A DNA stretch of 64,000 nt, taken from the NCBI RefSeq assembly GCF_025961205.1, contig NZ_JAOQNH010000001.1:2318001-2382000 (forward strand), in the 5' to 3' direction. The position numbers were made by a program, and so were the translations under genes. The DNA comes from Azospirillum fermentarium (GTDB lineage: Bacteria; Pseudomonadota; Alphaproteobacteria; Azospirillales; Azospirillaceae). The notes below the pieces were generated by a model, which was given only the letters and a program-made list of their open reading frames with translations, had not been told where the DNA came from and did not search any database. Shown here piece after piece: positions 2,498 to 54,948 of this stretch (within the stretch, counting starts at the first letter, position 1; the number at the start of each line of letters is the position of its first letter).

Positions 2498-3835
2498 ATG
2501 AGCCGTCTTCCCACCCTGGCCTCTCTGGCCGACGCGCTGGCCAGCGGCCAGACCACCAGCACCGCCCTGGTTACCCAGGCGCTCGACCGTATCGCCGACC
2601 CGGCGGGGGAGGGTGCCCGCGCCTTCACCCGCGTGGACCGTGACGCCGCCCTGGCCGCGGCGGCGGCCAGCGATGCCTTGCGCGCTCATGGAGTGGTGCC
2701 GTCGCCGCTGGCGGGGATTCCGGTGTCGGTCAAGGATCTGTTCGACATCCGGGGCCAGACCACCGCCGCCGGTTCCCGCCTGCTGCGCGATGCCCCGCCG
2801 GCCACGGCGGACGCGGCGGTGGTGGCGCGGCTGCGCGCGGCGGGCGCGGTGATCGTGGGCCGCACCGCCATGACCGAATTCGCCTTTTCCGGCCTGGGCC
2901 TCAACCCTCATACCGGCACGCCGGGCAACCCGTTCGGCCGGGACCGGATTCCCGGCGGCTCGTCGTCGGGGGCGGCGGTGTCGGTGGCCGACGGCATGGC
3001 CGCGGCGGCGGTGGGCAGCGACACCGGCGGGTCGGTGCGCATCCCCGCCGCCTTCTGCGGGCTGGCCGGGTTCAAGCCGACGCAGGCGCGGGTGCCGCGC
3101 GACGGCGCCTTCCCCCTGTCGTGGACGCTCGACACCGTGGGGCCGCTGGGCCGTTCCGTCGCCTGCTGCGCGCTGATGGATGCGGTGATGGCGGGAGAGG
3201 CCCCGGAGGTGCCGGAGCCTGCCCCCGTTGCCGGCCTGCGGCTGGCGGTGCCGCGCTGCCACGCGCTGGATGGGCTGGACGCCACCGTGGCCGCCGCCTT
3301 CGCCCGCGCGCTGGACCGGCTGTCCGCCGCCGGGGCGCGGGTCGTCGAGATCGACGGAGCGGTGTTCGACCGCATCCCCCAAGCCAACGCCCGCATCAAC
3401 TTTTCCACGGCGGAAGCCTATGCCCTGCACCGCCCGTGGCTCGCCACCCGCAGCGGGGAGTATGACCCGCGCGTGCGGGCGCGGTTGGAACGGGCGCTGC
3501 TGGCCACCGCCCCCGATTACGTGGACCTGATGCGCGCCCGGCAGGCGCTGATGGCGCAGGCCGATGCCCTGACCCGCGCTTACGACGCGGTGGTGCTGCC
3601 GTCGGTGGCGGTGGTGGCCCCGCGGTTCGACGAACTGACCGATGACGCCGACTACGCGCGCATCAATTTGTTGGTTCTACGGAATACCAGTCTGTTTAAC
3701 TTTCTCGACCGTCCGGCGGTGTCGGTGCCGGTGGCCAGCGATGATCTGCCGGTAGGGTTGATGCTGGCCGGCGCCATGGGGGGCGACCACGCCCTGCTGT
3801 CGCTCGCCCAGGGCATCGAAGCCGTCGTTTGCTAA
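2498..3835 (+). CDS. Amidase (amidase signature family)
   Basis: The 445-residue protein belongs to the amidase signature family, which hydrolyses amide bonds with a Ser-cisSer-Lys triad. The triad is readable: K79 in SVKDLFD, cis-Ser S155 in GGSSSG and nucleophile S179 in GSDTGGSVRIP. The 24-residue spacing of the two serines equals that of FAAH. The protein is shorter than GatA, lacks the gatCB context and sits alone, so it is more likely a catabolic amidase (allophanate/indoleacetamide/AtzF-like side of the family) than the tRNA amidotransferase subunit. The substrate cannot be told. The gene ends two bases before the terminator of a small RNA on the other strand. Confidence 0.88.
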   Translation: MSRLPTLASLADALASGQTTSTALVTQALDRIADPAGEGARAFTRVDRDAALAAAAASDALRAHGVVPSPLAGIPVSVKDLFDIRGQTTAAGSRLLRDAPPATADAAVVARLRAAGAVIVGRTAMTEFAFSGLGLNPHTGTPGNPFGRDRIPGGSSSGAAVSVADGMAAAAVGSDTGGSVRIPAAFCGLAGFKPTQARVPRDGAFPLSWTLDTVGPLGRSVACCALMDAVMAGEAPEVPEPAPVAGLRLAVPRCHALDGLDATVAAAFARALDRLSAAGARVVEIDGAVFDRIPQANARINFSTAEAYALHRPWLATRSGEYDPRVRARLERALLATAPDYVDLMRARQALMAQADALTRAYDAVVLPSVAVVAPRFDELTDDADYARINLLVLRNTSLFNFLDRPAVSVPVASDDLPVGLMLAGAMGGDHALLSLAQGIEAVVC

Positions 3836-3836
3836 C

Positions 3837-3869
3837 AAAAAGAAAGGAGGCTTCGCGATCGAAGCCTCC
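3837..3869 (-). terminator. Intrinsic terminator of small RNA copy 1
   Basis: Perfect inverted repeat with arms 3846-3855 and 3860-3869 (GGAGGCTTCG / CGAAGCCTCC) around the loop CGAT. On the minus strand it is followed by TTTCTTTTTG. There is no T-run on the plus side, so it is oriented for the minus-strand RNA, although the stem may also help end the amidase transcript. Confidence 0.85.
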
Positions 3870-3898
3870 AAGAGCAAAAACAGGGAGGGTTAGAGACA
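3837..3898 (-). ncRNA. Predicted FNR-dependent small RNA, copy 1
   Basis: Read on the minus strand, a perfect FNR/FixK box (3933-3946) is followed by a -10 hexamer TAAGAA (3905-3910) and a predicted start near 3898, which places the box centre at -41.5. The short transcript would carry a single-stranded CTCTAACCCTCCCTGT motif, complementary to Shine-Dalgarno sequences, then a 10-bp GC-rich hairpin and a U-rich tail. Predicted length is about 62 nt. A second unit with the same layout lies 246 bp away. Position, spacing and conserved parts are seen in the sequence. Function as a base-pairing riboregulator is inferred, by analogy with the FNR-controlled FnrS of enterobacteria. No sequence relationship with FnrS is claimed. 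Confidence 0.7.
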
Positions 3899-3932
3899 GG
3901 ATCTTTCTTATGCCGTTCCACCAGGGCGTTCG

Positions 3933-3946
3933 TTGATCCATATCAA
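3933..3946 (-). promoter_or_regulatory. FNR/FixK-type box upstream of small RNA copy 1
   Basis: TTGATCCATATCAA is an exact match to the TTGAT-N4-ATCAA consensus for FNR/Anr/FixK regulators. Its centre (3939.5) is 41.5 bp upstream of the predicted start at 3898, the class II activation position, with a -10 element at 3905-3910. No protein-coding gene starts nearby on either strand, so its target should be the small RNA. Confidence 0.8.
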
Positions 3947-4082
3947 GCCAAAAGGCCGAAGCTCCCCGTTTTTCGTATGGCGGCTGTGACGAAATTGGGG
4001 ATGTTTAAAATATCGACCAGTAATGGCCCCGCTGGACCAATGGTCTGACCAGTCTCCCGCCCCCTCAAGGGCAACGCGACAT

Positions 4083-4115
4083 AAAAAAACCGGAGGTTCC
4101 GATCGGAACCTCCGG
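4083..4115 (-). terminator. Intrinsic terminator of small RNA copy 2
   Basis: Perfect inverted repeat, arms 4090-4100 and 4105-4115 (CCGGAGGTTCC / GGAACCTCCGG) with loop GATC, followed on the minus strand by seven consecutive T (4083-4089). This is a textbook Rho-independent terminator for minus-strand transcription. Confidence 0.9.
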
Positions 4116-4144
4116 CAAAGGCGATTACAGGGAGGGTTAGAGAT
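4083..4144 (-). ncRNA. Predicted FNR-dependent small RNA, copy 2
   Basis: This is the second, diverged copy of the unit at 3837-3898. On the minus strand an FNR-type box (4179-4192) lies with its centre 41.5 bp upstream of a predicted start near 4144, with -10 hexamer TAGAAC at 4151-4156. The transcript would contain the same CTCTAACCCTCCCTGT motif, a short linker, an 11-bp hairpin and seven U residues, again about 62 nt. The hairpin sequence differs from copy 1, but with compensating changes in both arms, while the single-stranded motif is identical. That pattern is expected of selection on RNA structure plus a conserved seed. It lies downstream of hisI on the same strand but has its own promoter. 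Confidence 0.7.
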
Positions 4145-4178
4145 GCGTTGGTTCTAACCCAAAAGGCCGATGCAGACT

Positions 4179-4192
4179 TTGACATAGATCAA
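4179..4192 (-). promoter_or_regulatory. FNR/FixK-type box upstream of small RNA copy 2
   Basis: Minus-strand reading TTGATCTATGTCAA differs from the TTGAT-N4-ATCAA consensus at one position only. Its distance to the conserved transcript motif (36 bp) is almost the same as in copy 1 (37 bp), so the duplication included the promoter. Confidence 0.72.
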
Positions 4193-4216: not shown

Positions 4217-4660
4217 TTATGCTTTTTGCTTGGTATCACCACCGTAAAGGGCGGCGGGGTCCATGGTGACCTCCTGAATGACCTCCAGACCGTCGCCGCG
4301 GACCGCCTGGTAGAAGCACGACCGCCGTCCGGTGTGGCATGCCACGCCCAATTGATCGACCACCACAAGCACGGTATCGCCGTCGCAGTCGATGCGGAAA
4401 TCGGCCAGCCGCTGCACCTGGCCCGAGGTTTCGCCCTTGCGCCACAGCCCCTTGCGCGACCGCGACCAGTAGCAGACCCGCCCGGTGGTCAGGGTTTCCG
4501 CCACCGCGTCGCGGTTCATCCAGGCCATCATCAGCACCTCGCCGGTGTCGGCCTGCTGGGCGATGGCCGGGACCAGCCCGGCGTCGTTGAAGCGGATGGC
4601 GGCCAGGGCCGCACCGATGGCGGCGGGGGTGGCGAAGGGGGTGGCCGTCTCGTTGCTCAT
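4217..4660 (-). CDS. hisI: Phosphoribosyl-AMP cyclohydrolase
   Basis: HisI opens the adenine ring of phosphoribosyl-AMP in the third step of histidine synthesis. The protein has the family's [29 protein letters not shown] and the metal-binding DCDGD and [11 protein letters not shown] segments. It is a stand-alone cyclohydrolase without the HisE pyrophosphohydrolase domain, as usual in alphaproteobacteria. I chose the ATG at 4660 (147 residues) because AAGGA lies a proper distance upstream. A GTG at 4678 overlapping the metC-like stop would add six residues. It is the second gene of a unit with the MetC-like lyase. The pairing has no obvious pathway logic. Confidence 0.93.
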
Positions 4661-4674
4661 CGCTTGTTCCTTGG

Positions 4675-5850
4675 TCACAGGGCCGCCGCCAGCCGGGCGA
4701 AGGCGCGTTCAAGATCGCGGATCAGGTCGTCGGGATCCTCCAGCCCGGCGTGCAGGCGGACCAGCGGTCCCGGCTCGTCCCAGCGGGTGGCGGTGCGGAT
4801 GGCGCCGGGGCGCACCGGCAGGATCAGGCTTTCGAACCCGCCCCAGGAATAGCCGATGCCGAACAGTTCGAACCCGTCGAACATGGCGCTCAGCGCCGCC
4901 TTGGGCACCGGGTGCAGCAGGGCGCTGAACAGGCCGCAGGCGCCCGTGAAGTCGCGCTTCCACAGATCATGGCCCGGATGGTCGGGGCGGGCGGGGTGGA
5001 TGACCCGCACCACTTCCGGGCGGCGGGACAGCCAGTCGGCCAGCAGCAGCCCGGATTCCTGGTGCTGCTTCAGCCGCACCCTCATGGTGCGCAGGCCGCG
5101 CAGGCCCAGATACACGTCGTCCGGCCCGGCGCAGGTGCCCAGGCTGACGGCGGCCTTCTTCACCGTGGCATAGACCTCCTCGGTGCAGACCAGAACGCCC
5201 AGCATGGCATCCGAATGGCCGACGATGTATTTGGTGGCGGCGTGCAGCGACACGTCCACCCCGTGGCGCAGCGGCTGGTAGAACAGCGGCGTGGCCCAGG
5301 TGTTGTCCATCACCACCCGTGCGCCCACGGTCTTGGCCGCCGCGGCGATGGCCGGAATGTCCTGCATCTCGAACGTCAGGGAGCCGGGGGATTCCACGAA
5401 CACCAGCGCGGTGTTGGGCCGCAGCAGAGCCGCGATCCCCGCCCCGATGGCGGGGTCGAAATACTCCACCGTCACCCCGTAGCGGGTGAGGGTTTCGTTG
5501 GCGAAGCGGCGGGTGGGGCCGTAGGCGCTGTCGGTGATCAGCACATGGTCGCCGGTCCTGGTGAAGGCCATCAGCGCGGTGGAGATGGCCGCCAGACCCG
5601 ACGCGGCGGTGACCGCGCGGTATCCGCCCTCCAGCTCCGCCACCGCCTCTTCGAAGGCGAAGCTGGTGGGGGTGCCGATCCGGCCGTAGTTCACCGTGTC
5701 GAAGGGCGCCCGGTCGCTGGCCTCCAGCGCTTCCAGGTTGGGATAGATGACGGTGGAGGCGTGGTAGACCGGCGGATTGACGATGCCGTGGTTGGCAAGG
5801 GGGTTGCGCCCGGCATGGGCCAGCACGGTATCGGGTTTGGCGTCCTTCAT
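4675..5850 (-). CDS. metC: Cystathionine beta-lyase (Cys/Met metabolism PLP-dependent enzyme)
   Basis: The 391-residue protein is a gamma-family PLP enzyme that would cleave cystathionine to homocysteine, pyruvate and ammonia for methionine synthesis. Seen motifs are [10 protein letters not shown] near residues 54-63, the phosphate-binding [10 protein letters not shown] (81-90), the cofactor aspartate in [10 protein letters not shown] (D182) and the Schiff-base lysine K207 in [18 protein letters not shown]. The [13 protein letters not shown] context and the length favour the MetC subgroup over MetB, MetZ or sulfhydrylases, but the substrate rests on similarity only. The ribosome site before the ATG is weak. 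No SAM-II riboswitch core was recognised upstream. Confidence 0.85.
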
Positions 5851-54914: not shown

Positions 54915-54948
54915 GCTGGTCAAAGCCTCCCTGTCACCCGTGGGCCCG

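Follow-up and report, generated by a model that had tools for sequence, protein, structure and literature searches.

The window, by which we mean the whole 64-kb stretch of Azospirillum fermentarium DNA that was analysed, holds two short units on its minus strand, flanked by a hisI-like gene (4217..4678, minus) and, on the plus strand, by an amidase-like gene (2498-3835). The hisI-like open reading frame is the upstream neighbour of the units on the same strand, and next to it lies a metC-like open reading frame for a PLP enzyme (4675..5850, minus). All three gene names are presumptive and were assigned from the sequences. About 2.6 kb from the pair there is also a cydB-like gene (187-1206), which we take to encode subunit II of cytochrome d oxidase, a low-oxygen oxidase. 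No cydB match was present in 28 sRNA loci, most of which cover no more than a few kb around the sRNA gene.

The unit nearer to hisI, here called unit B, opens with an FNR/FixK-type box, TTGATCTATGTCAA (4179..4192, minus), and continues through a -10-like element, TAGAAC (4151..4156, minus; TA at 4156/4155), into a predicted RNA of 62 nt (4083..4144, minus). This RNA carries a conserved core, CTCTAACCCTCCCTGT (4127..4142, minus), which includes the anti-Shine-Dalgarno segment CCCTCCCT and is unpaired in the predicted fold, and it ends in a predicted intrinsic terminator with a perfect 12-bp stem and a run of T residues (4089..4116, minus). Unit A repeats this layout with the box TTGATATGGATCAA (3933..3946, minus), the -10-like element TAAGAA (3905..3910, minus; TA at 3910/3909), a second predicted 62-nt RNA (3837..3898, minus), an exact copy of the core (3880..3895, minus), and a terminator with a perfect 10-bp stem and a T-rich tail (3846..3869, minus).

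A first-pass annotation of this DNA had described two minus-strand units sharing a box, a -10-like TA, an identical core and a terminator, and had predicted 62-nt transcripts for both. Each of these elements was found again. If transcription starts at 3898 and 4144, positions that may be off by one base, the centre of each box falls at -41.5 and each transcript has the predicted length. The two boxes are the only TTGAY-N4-RTCAA sites in the window, against a chance expectation of 0.08, and the core occurs exactly at 3895-3880 and 4142-4127 (minus) and at no other site in the genome with up to two mismatches. At window position 54919, three mismatches from the core, no terminator was seen by eye. 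When folded as 65-nt sequences, the units gave z scores of -4.25 and -4.63, values that none of 200 shuffled sequences equalled; unit A taken at a length of 73 nt gave -2.93. Two covariance models, R1 and R2, were built from the transcript only, with the promoter box excluded. Unit B scores 71.4 bits with R2 and has an E value of 8.5e-20 with R1 in its own genome, and unit A scores 54.2 bits with R2. Judged by sequence, the two units belong to a single conserved family of sRNA genes.

Conservation within the genus is nearly complete. The core, with at most one mismatch, was found in 36 of 37 genomes of the genus Azospirillum and in none of 24 genomes from elsewhere in the class, while a reversed control pattern matched in 6 of the 61 genomes. 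The sole miss, G027, is also the only one of 45 genus genomes that has no clear copy with model R1 (best E value 0.004); the other 44 have one. Among 60 distinct copies in loci L001-L031, every copy has a box, which starts 50-53 bases before the core and is perfect in 58 cases and carries one mismatch in two. Information content across these copies is low in the spacer and higher at the box and at the TA, which is enriched at the same spacing as in unit B. It amounts to 0.55-1.13 bits in the three bases preceding the G of GTCTC and to 1.55-2.0 bits over the stretch that begins with this base and takes in the core. With the box centred at -41.5, this G is position +1 or one base away from it. 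The core is near-identical across copies while the remainder varies. Because conservation sets in at the predicted end of the transcript, the pattern is the one expected of a selected RNA rather than of a DNA repeat.

The terminator stem points in the same direction. In an alignment of 58 copies to model R1, pairing is kept in 93.0% of stem cells, compared with 37-54% in slid controls, although an alignment fitted to a structure is biased toward pairing. All 11 stem pairs have changed on both sides, and double-change cells number 112, compared with 10-29 in slid controls. In predicted folds of 75 distinct transcripts (53-75 nt, median 63 nt), a set restricted to copies with both box and core in the scanned loci, the core has a mean unpaired probability of 0.95 with a lowest value of 0.57, and exceeds 0.8 in 71 of the 75. 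In 13 of them, the best fold contains paired bases at the core end or ahead of it. The predicted folds present an accessible CU-rich core and an intrinsic terminator with a U-tail, as in Hfq-dependent anti-Shine-Dalgarno trans-sRNAs.

That the two hairpins differ in sequence but keep their pairing had been noted earlier as a sign of selection. The perfect stems are real and the covariation extends across species, but a recent duplication preserved by compensatory change does not account for them. We rejected a recent tandem duplication of units A and B because each unit belongs to a sibling type of its own, and both types are found again in other species of the genus. Copies were sorted into three types by the sequence 3' of the core, a rule of our own in which the box was not used, and two distinct copies were left untyped. 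Counted in rows that include some loci twice, type 1 mostly has the box TTGATCTATGTCAA, the commonest in this type, or TTGATCCACATCAA (22 of 27 rows), type 2 mostly has TTGATNCAGATCAA (20 of 27), and type 3 mostly has TTGACATGCATCAA or TTGATNTGGATCAA (11 of 15). Such distinct and recurring boxes suggest that the siblings may differ in promoter strength. The order is 1-2-3 in the five loci that hold all three types, and one further array (L016) reads 1-2-2-untyped. The window pair consists of type 1 (unit B, starting at 4144) and type 3 (unit A, starting at 3898), and type 2 is absent. In some Azospirillum genomes, sibling 1 is separated from siblings 2 and 3 by about 8 kb, and the two parts lie on opposite strands. 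The earlier description of the units as twins is incomplete because the genomes read hold up to four siblings, and the pair represents siblings 1 and 3 of an array with a set order.

The family extends well beyond the genus. Model R1 gives a match of at least 32 bits in 14 of the 37 genomes from the rest of the taxonomic family, including all five of the genus labelled g37, whereas none of seven genomes of g34 reaches this score; weak matches of about 26-30 bits occur in further genomes of the family. A search of 385 genomes of the class with R2 at E ≤1e-6 gave matches in 11 genomes, of which three fall in the same order, three in f16, three in f87, and two in f93. At E ≤1e-5, matches were found in 7 of 17 f16 genomes and 3 of 4 f87 genomes; the 10 f16 genomes with no R2 match, like the R1 results for the family and for g34, indicate a patchy spread. 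Searches at the level of orders returned the same genomes, so f16 and f87 represent two further orders. A box with at most one mismatch precedes 27 of 29 copies from outside the genus, is perfect in 24, and is centred 40.5 to 42.5 bases before the G of GTCTC; its background frequency is one match in 14,500 positions. Conservation of box, seed, and terminator in related genomes, on which the first-pass annotation had staked its reading, was found in three orders, and that reading is supported.

The two copies lacking a box are the f93 RNAs (in G282 and G450). These, together with a second match in G405 (L145), were rejected as family members because they have no box and look like a different type of anti-Shine-Dalgarno RNA. 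The RNAs at the two f93 loci (L133 and L137) and at L145 start with GTCTC, have cores reading GAGCCTCCCTGTT or AAGCCTCCCTGTT, and possess terminators, and no FNR-type box precedes them. For a second match in G326 (L146), our script did not find the GTCTC core. A pattern of box, spacer, and core occurs in 47 stretches over named genomes, which include Azospirillum, Skermanella, Azospirillaceae MAGs, a Rhodospirillales MAG, and a record labelled Roseomonas genomospecies 6. One SAR86 contig is also among the 47.

Genomic context is shared as widely. Outside the genus but within the family, homologues of hisI and/or metC adjoin the sRNA at 12 of 16 loci. A hisI homologue lies 36-79 nt upstream of the sRNA in all three f87 loci, and metC and/or aapJ lie within 5 kb of it in six of seven f16 loci. 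Synteny with metC, hisI, or aap genes therefore spans three orders, and from these shared neighbours the sRNA gene is probably older than the split of these orders.

The gene architecture, its conservation, the stem covariation, the box and its position, the accessible core, and an FNR-like protein in the genome were all computed. On this basis we consider it probable that the window holds two genes of an ancient multi-copy family, whose trans-acting anti-Shine-Dalgarno sRNAs of about 62 nt would be activated by FNR at low oxygen and would lower the translation of selected mRNAs. Low-oxygen induction, Hfq binding, repression, and the identity of targets are what we infer in the following scheme. 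When oxygen is scarce, an FNR-type regulator would bind the TTGAY-N4-RTCAA box at about -41.5, a class II position, and would activate transcription of about 62 nt from at or next to the G (an A in unit B) of GUCUC to the intrinsic terminator. The unpaired 5' part of the RNA, with CCCUCCCU, would then base-pair to selected mRNAs at their purine-rich ribosome binding sites, probably with the U-tail of the sRNA attached to Hfq, and translation of the paired mRNAs would be lowered. Points that speak against this reading are the missing copy in G027, the patchy spread outside the genus, the 13 transcripts with pairing at or ahead of the core end, and the outcome of the target search described below.

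The first step of this scheme depends on which protein reads the box. Six matches to the CRP/FNR family are present in the host genome. One of these proteins (L267) has CGACPVRSLTIC, a later TACTLC, and the helix ETVSR, and is the only one of the six to join the longer cysteine set with ETVSR. These cysteines are candidate cluster ligands, and their combination with ETVSR resembles the FNR motif. Another of the six (L270) has an N-terminal pair of cysteines, one further cysteine, and an ETASR helix. The box alone cannot distinguish FNR from other CRP/FNR relatives, and in a comparative survey FnrN and FixK are described as recognising closely similar sites (PMC4999443). It is therefore conceivable, though unlikely, that the box of the same sRNAs is read mainly by another protein of this kind, for example one responsive to nitric oxide, so that the signal is not oxygen itself. 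The distinctive motif set of L267 argues for FNR instead, as does the statement in the same survey that only FnrN-type proteins occur in the Rhodospirillales (PMC4999443). Given the type of box, its -41.5 position, the FNR-like protein in the genome, and this survey, FNR is the best candidate regulator, and control by FNR is likely. The terms "small RNA" and "hisI" do not appear in the main text of the survey (PMC4999443).

Several described alphaproteobacterial RNAs resemble the new ones in part. The alpha-r8/MmgR RNAs (RF00519) and Caulobacter SisA-D share with them a CCUCCCU-type anti-Shine-Dalgarno segment, a terminator, and multiple siblings, and SorX (RF02784) and BjrC1505 (RF02356) are likewise short RNAs with a CCUCCCU-type motif. 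Were the window units divergent members of alpha-r8/MmgR or SorX, they would already have been described. The CCUCCCU segment they have in common, which in many copies precedes ACU and a terminator, is consistent with such membership, and 10 of 12 alpha-r8 loci score 10-19 bits with R2 (maximum 18.7). The E values in this small search run from 1e-4 to 0.04, so the cores may be related to some degree. However, an Rfam scan of the window brought only a tRNA to the cut-off and no family at the two units, and no family reached its cut-off at copies in eight scanned loci. At E values up to 10, only BjrC1505, mir-4484, and P34 were listed for the window units, and FnrS, RF00519, and SorX were absent. 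The best weak match at the locus was BjrC1505 on unit A, with 21.3 bits against a cut-off of 50. A CcsR1 (RF02791) match lies elsewhere than at the sRNA and on the opposite strand.

The same genome also holds MmgR/alpha-r8 copies elsewhere. Two of them (L157:1035-1108 and L158:1089-1164) reach 59.9 and 58.6 bits with RF00519, above the gathering cut-off of 41 bits that the window units fall short of, and no FNR-type box was seen by eye in the 70-80 bases preceding 12 alpha-r8 copies. The alpha-r8 copies read in Azospirillum have GCGUUUCCUCCCUARACU cores after what by eye is an apparent 5' hairpin, whereas in the new RNAs GUCUCUAACCCUCCCUGU lies at the 5' end and an FNR-type box precedes the gene; the 65-nt predicted folds of the window units contain only the terminator hairpin. 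For SorX, the cut-off of 46.6 bits is not reached. An f16 copy scores 20.9 bits, and the box-less f93 RNA at L133 is the better match at 31 bits, also below the cut-off. With scores below threshold and models that separate the sets, we rejected membership in alpha-r8, SorX, or BjrC1505, and consider it improbable that the units are divergent alpha-r8/MmgR or SorX RNAs. RF00519 matches are themselves multi-copy, with 7 to 19 per genome at E ≤0.01 across 25 genus genomes and seven in this genome.

The proposed action of the new family as translational repressors rests on the core. CCCUCCCU is complementary to strong Shine-Dalgarno sequences, and the anti-Shine-Dalgarno role is consistent with both this sequence and its predicted accessibility. 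By analogy with Caulobacter SisA, the nearest experimentally tested precedent found, whose anti-Shine-Dalgarno 10-mer is reported to pair upstream of the start codon and to repress mRNAs with Hfq (PMC12559287), the unpaired CCCUCCCU suggests repression by masking of Shine-Dalgarno sites.

A search of 12 genomes for GGGAGGGTT-N3-12-ATG gave 109 sites, compared with 13 for the reversed pattern; this comparison is not a fair one, since any normal ribosome binding site may read GGGAGG ahead of ATG. The 78 sites examined leave out three that are antisense to the sRNA, three nested duplicates, 24 in interspersed repeats or repeat-like sequence, and G028:C50:476440. A frame of at least 40 codons is opened by 62 of the 78. 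Genes that we take to be pcaI, pcaF, an SDR gene, an OsmC-like gene, and a permease gene recur at these sites in two genomes each, and a presumed groEL occurs twice in one genome. Of 45 genus genomes, 24 have pcaI; no copy was found in the genome studied here. GGGAGGGTT lies upstream of pcaI in 3 of 25 loci and of pcaF in 4 of 24. Some of the pcaF sites nonetheless pair with the seed at -22 to -27 kcal/mol, compared with -19.7 for the best 1% of 300 random 52-mers, which are not ribosome binding sites. pcaI and pcaF, promising in a few species, were rejected as conserved targets at these frequencies, and the 12-genome site search with its pcaI and pcaF follow-up yielded no conserved target.

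This outcome, and a core that is near-constant in all copies while the remainder varies, would also fit RNAs that act mainly as sponges for RNAs with GGGAGGG-like segments rather than on the ribosome binding sites of mRNAs. Sponges directed against anti-Shine-Dalgarno sRNAs are known, as described for CrfA (PMC12559287). We regard a sponge role as improbable all the same, since the polarity of the core is anti-Shine-Dalgarno, like that of the targeting RNA SisA and unlike that of the sponge CrfA, which pairs with SisA. The idea that the units are not independent genes but 3'-UTR or terminator elements of hisI draws on the position of the first unit (unit B), which begins 73 nt past hisI in the same orientation, and was rejected as highly improbable because each unit has its own box at a near-fixed spacing, because copies in some genomes lie about 8 kb away on the other strand, and because conservation begins at the predicted +1.

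FNR-controlled sRNAs are well known in enterobacteria, and Azospirillum fixes nitrogen on roots at low oxygen. The enterobacterial FnrS resembles the new RNAs in being a short sRNA with a terminator and in its FNR-type activation at low oxygen, which for the new RNAs is presumed from an FNR-type box at about -41.5. The new RNAs differ from FnrS in that they have no Rfam match, carry an anti-Shine-Dalgarno core, occur as several siblings, and are alphaproteobacterial. According to a published review, FnrS represses genes that are dispensable without oxygen (PMC8139620), which is the role proposed here for the new RNAs. PcrZ of Rhodobacter sphaeroides is likewise an alphaproteobacterial low-oxygen sRNA that is FnrL-dependent. 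It is set apart by its description in that review as driven by PrrA, with FnrL control that is possibly indirect (PMC8139620).

The family seems to be undescribed. The first-pass annotation knew of no alphaproteobacterial pair with this seed, and this stands, as no Rfam family matched and no description was found in the open PMC literature. Neither FNR, CCCTCCC, nor hisI is mentioned in the main text of a paper on A. brasilense sRNAs in nitrogen starvation (PMC7685610), whose RNA-seq data may hold these RNAs unrecognised. What appears to be new is the joining of anti-Shine-Dalgarno sRNAs to a direct FNR-type promoter, and their occurrence in sibling arrays. If this is correct, an sRNA family with a direct FNR-type promoter, present in Azospirillum, Skermanella, and two more orders, would add a post-transcriptional layer to low-oxygen life, in contrast to the possibly indirect FNR dependence of PcrZ. 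More tentatively, and at somewhat less than even chances, the family could represent an ancestral equivalent of FnrS in the alphaproteobacteria. Anti-Shine-Dalgarno siblings arrayed in order, each with its own conserved version of the FNR box, would then impose a graded low-oxygen brake on the translation of aerobic functions in Azospirillum and its relatives, and no fewer than two other orders would have related RNAs in one or several copies.

An element, GGGAGGGTTAGGGTGGGGGCAATG, that holds the complement to part of the sRNA core, and that might titrate the sRNA if it were transcribed, is repeated in several genomes of the genus (for example, at G030:C3:23315-23338 and G022:C9:102671-102694).
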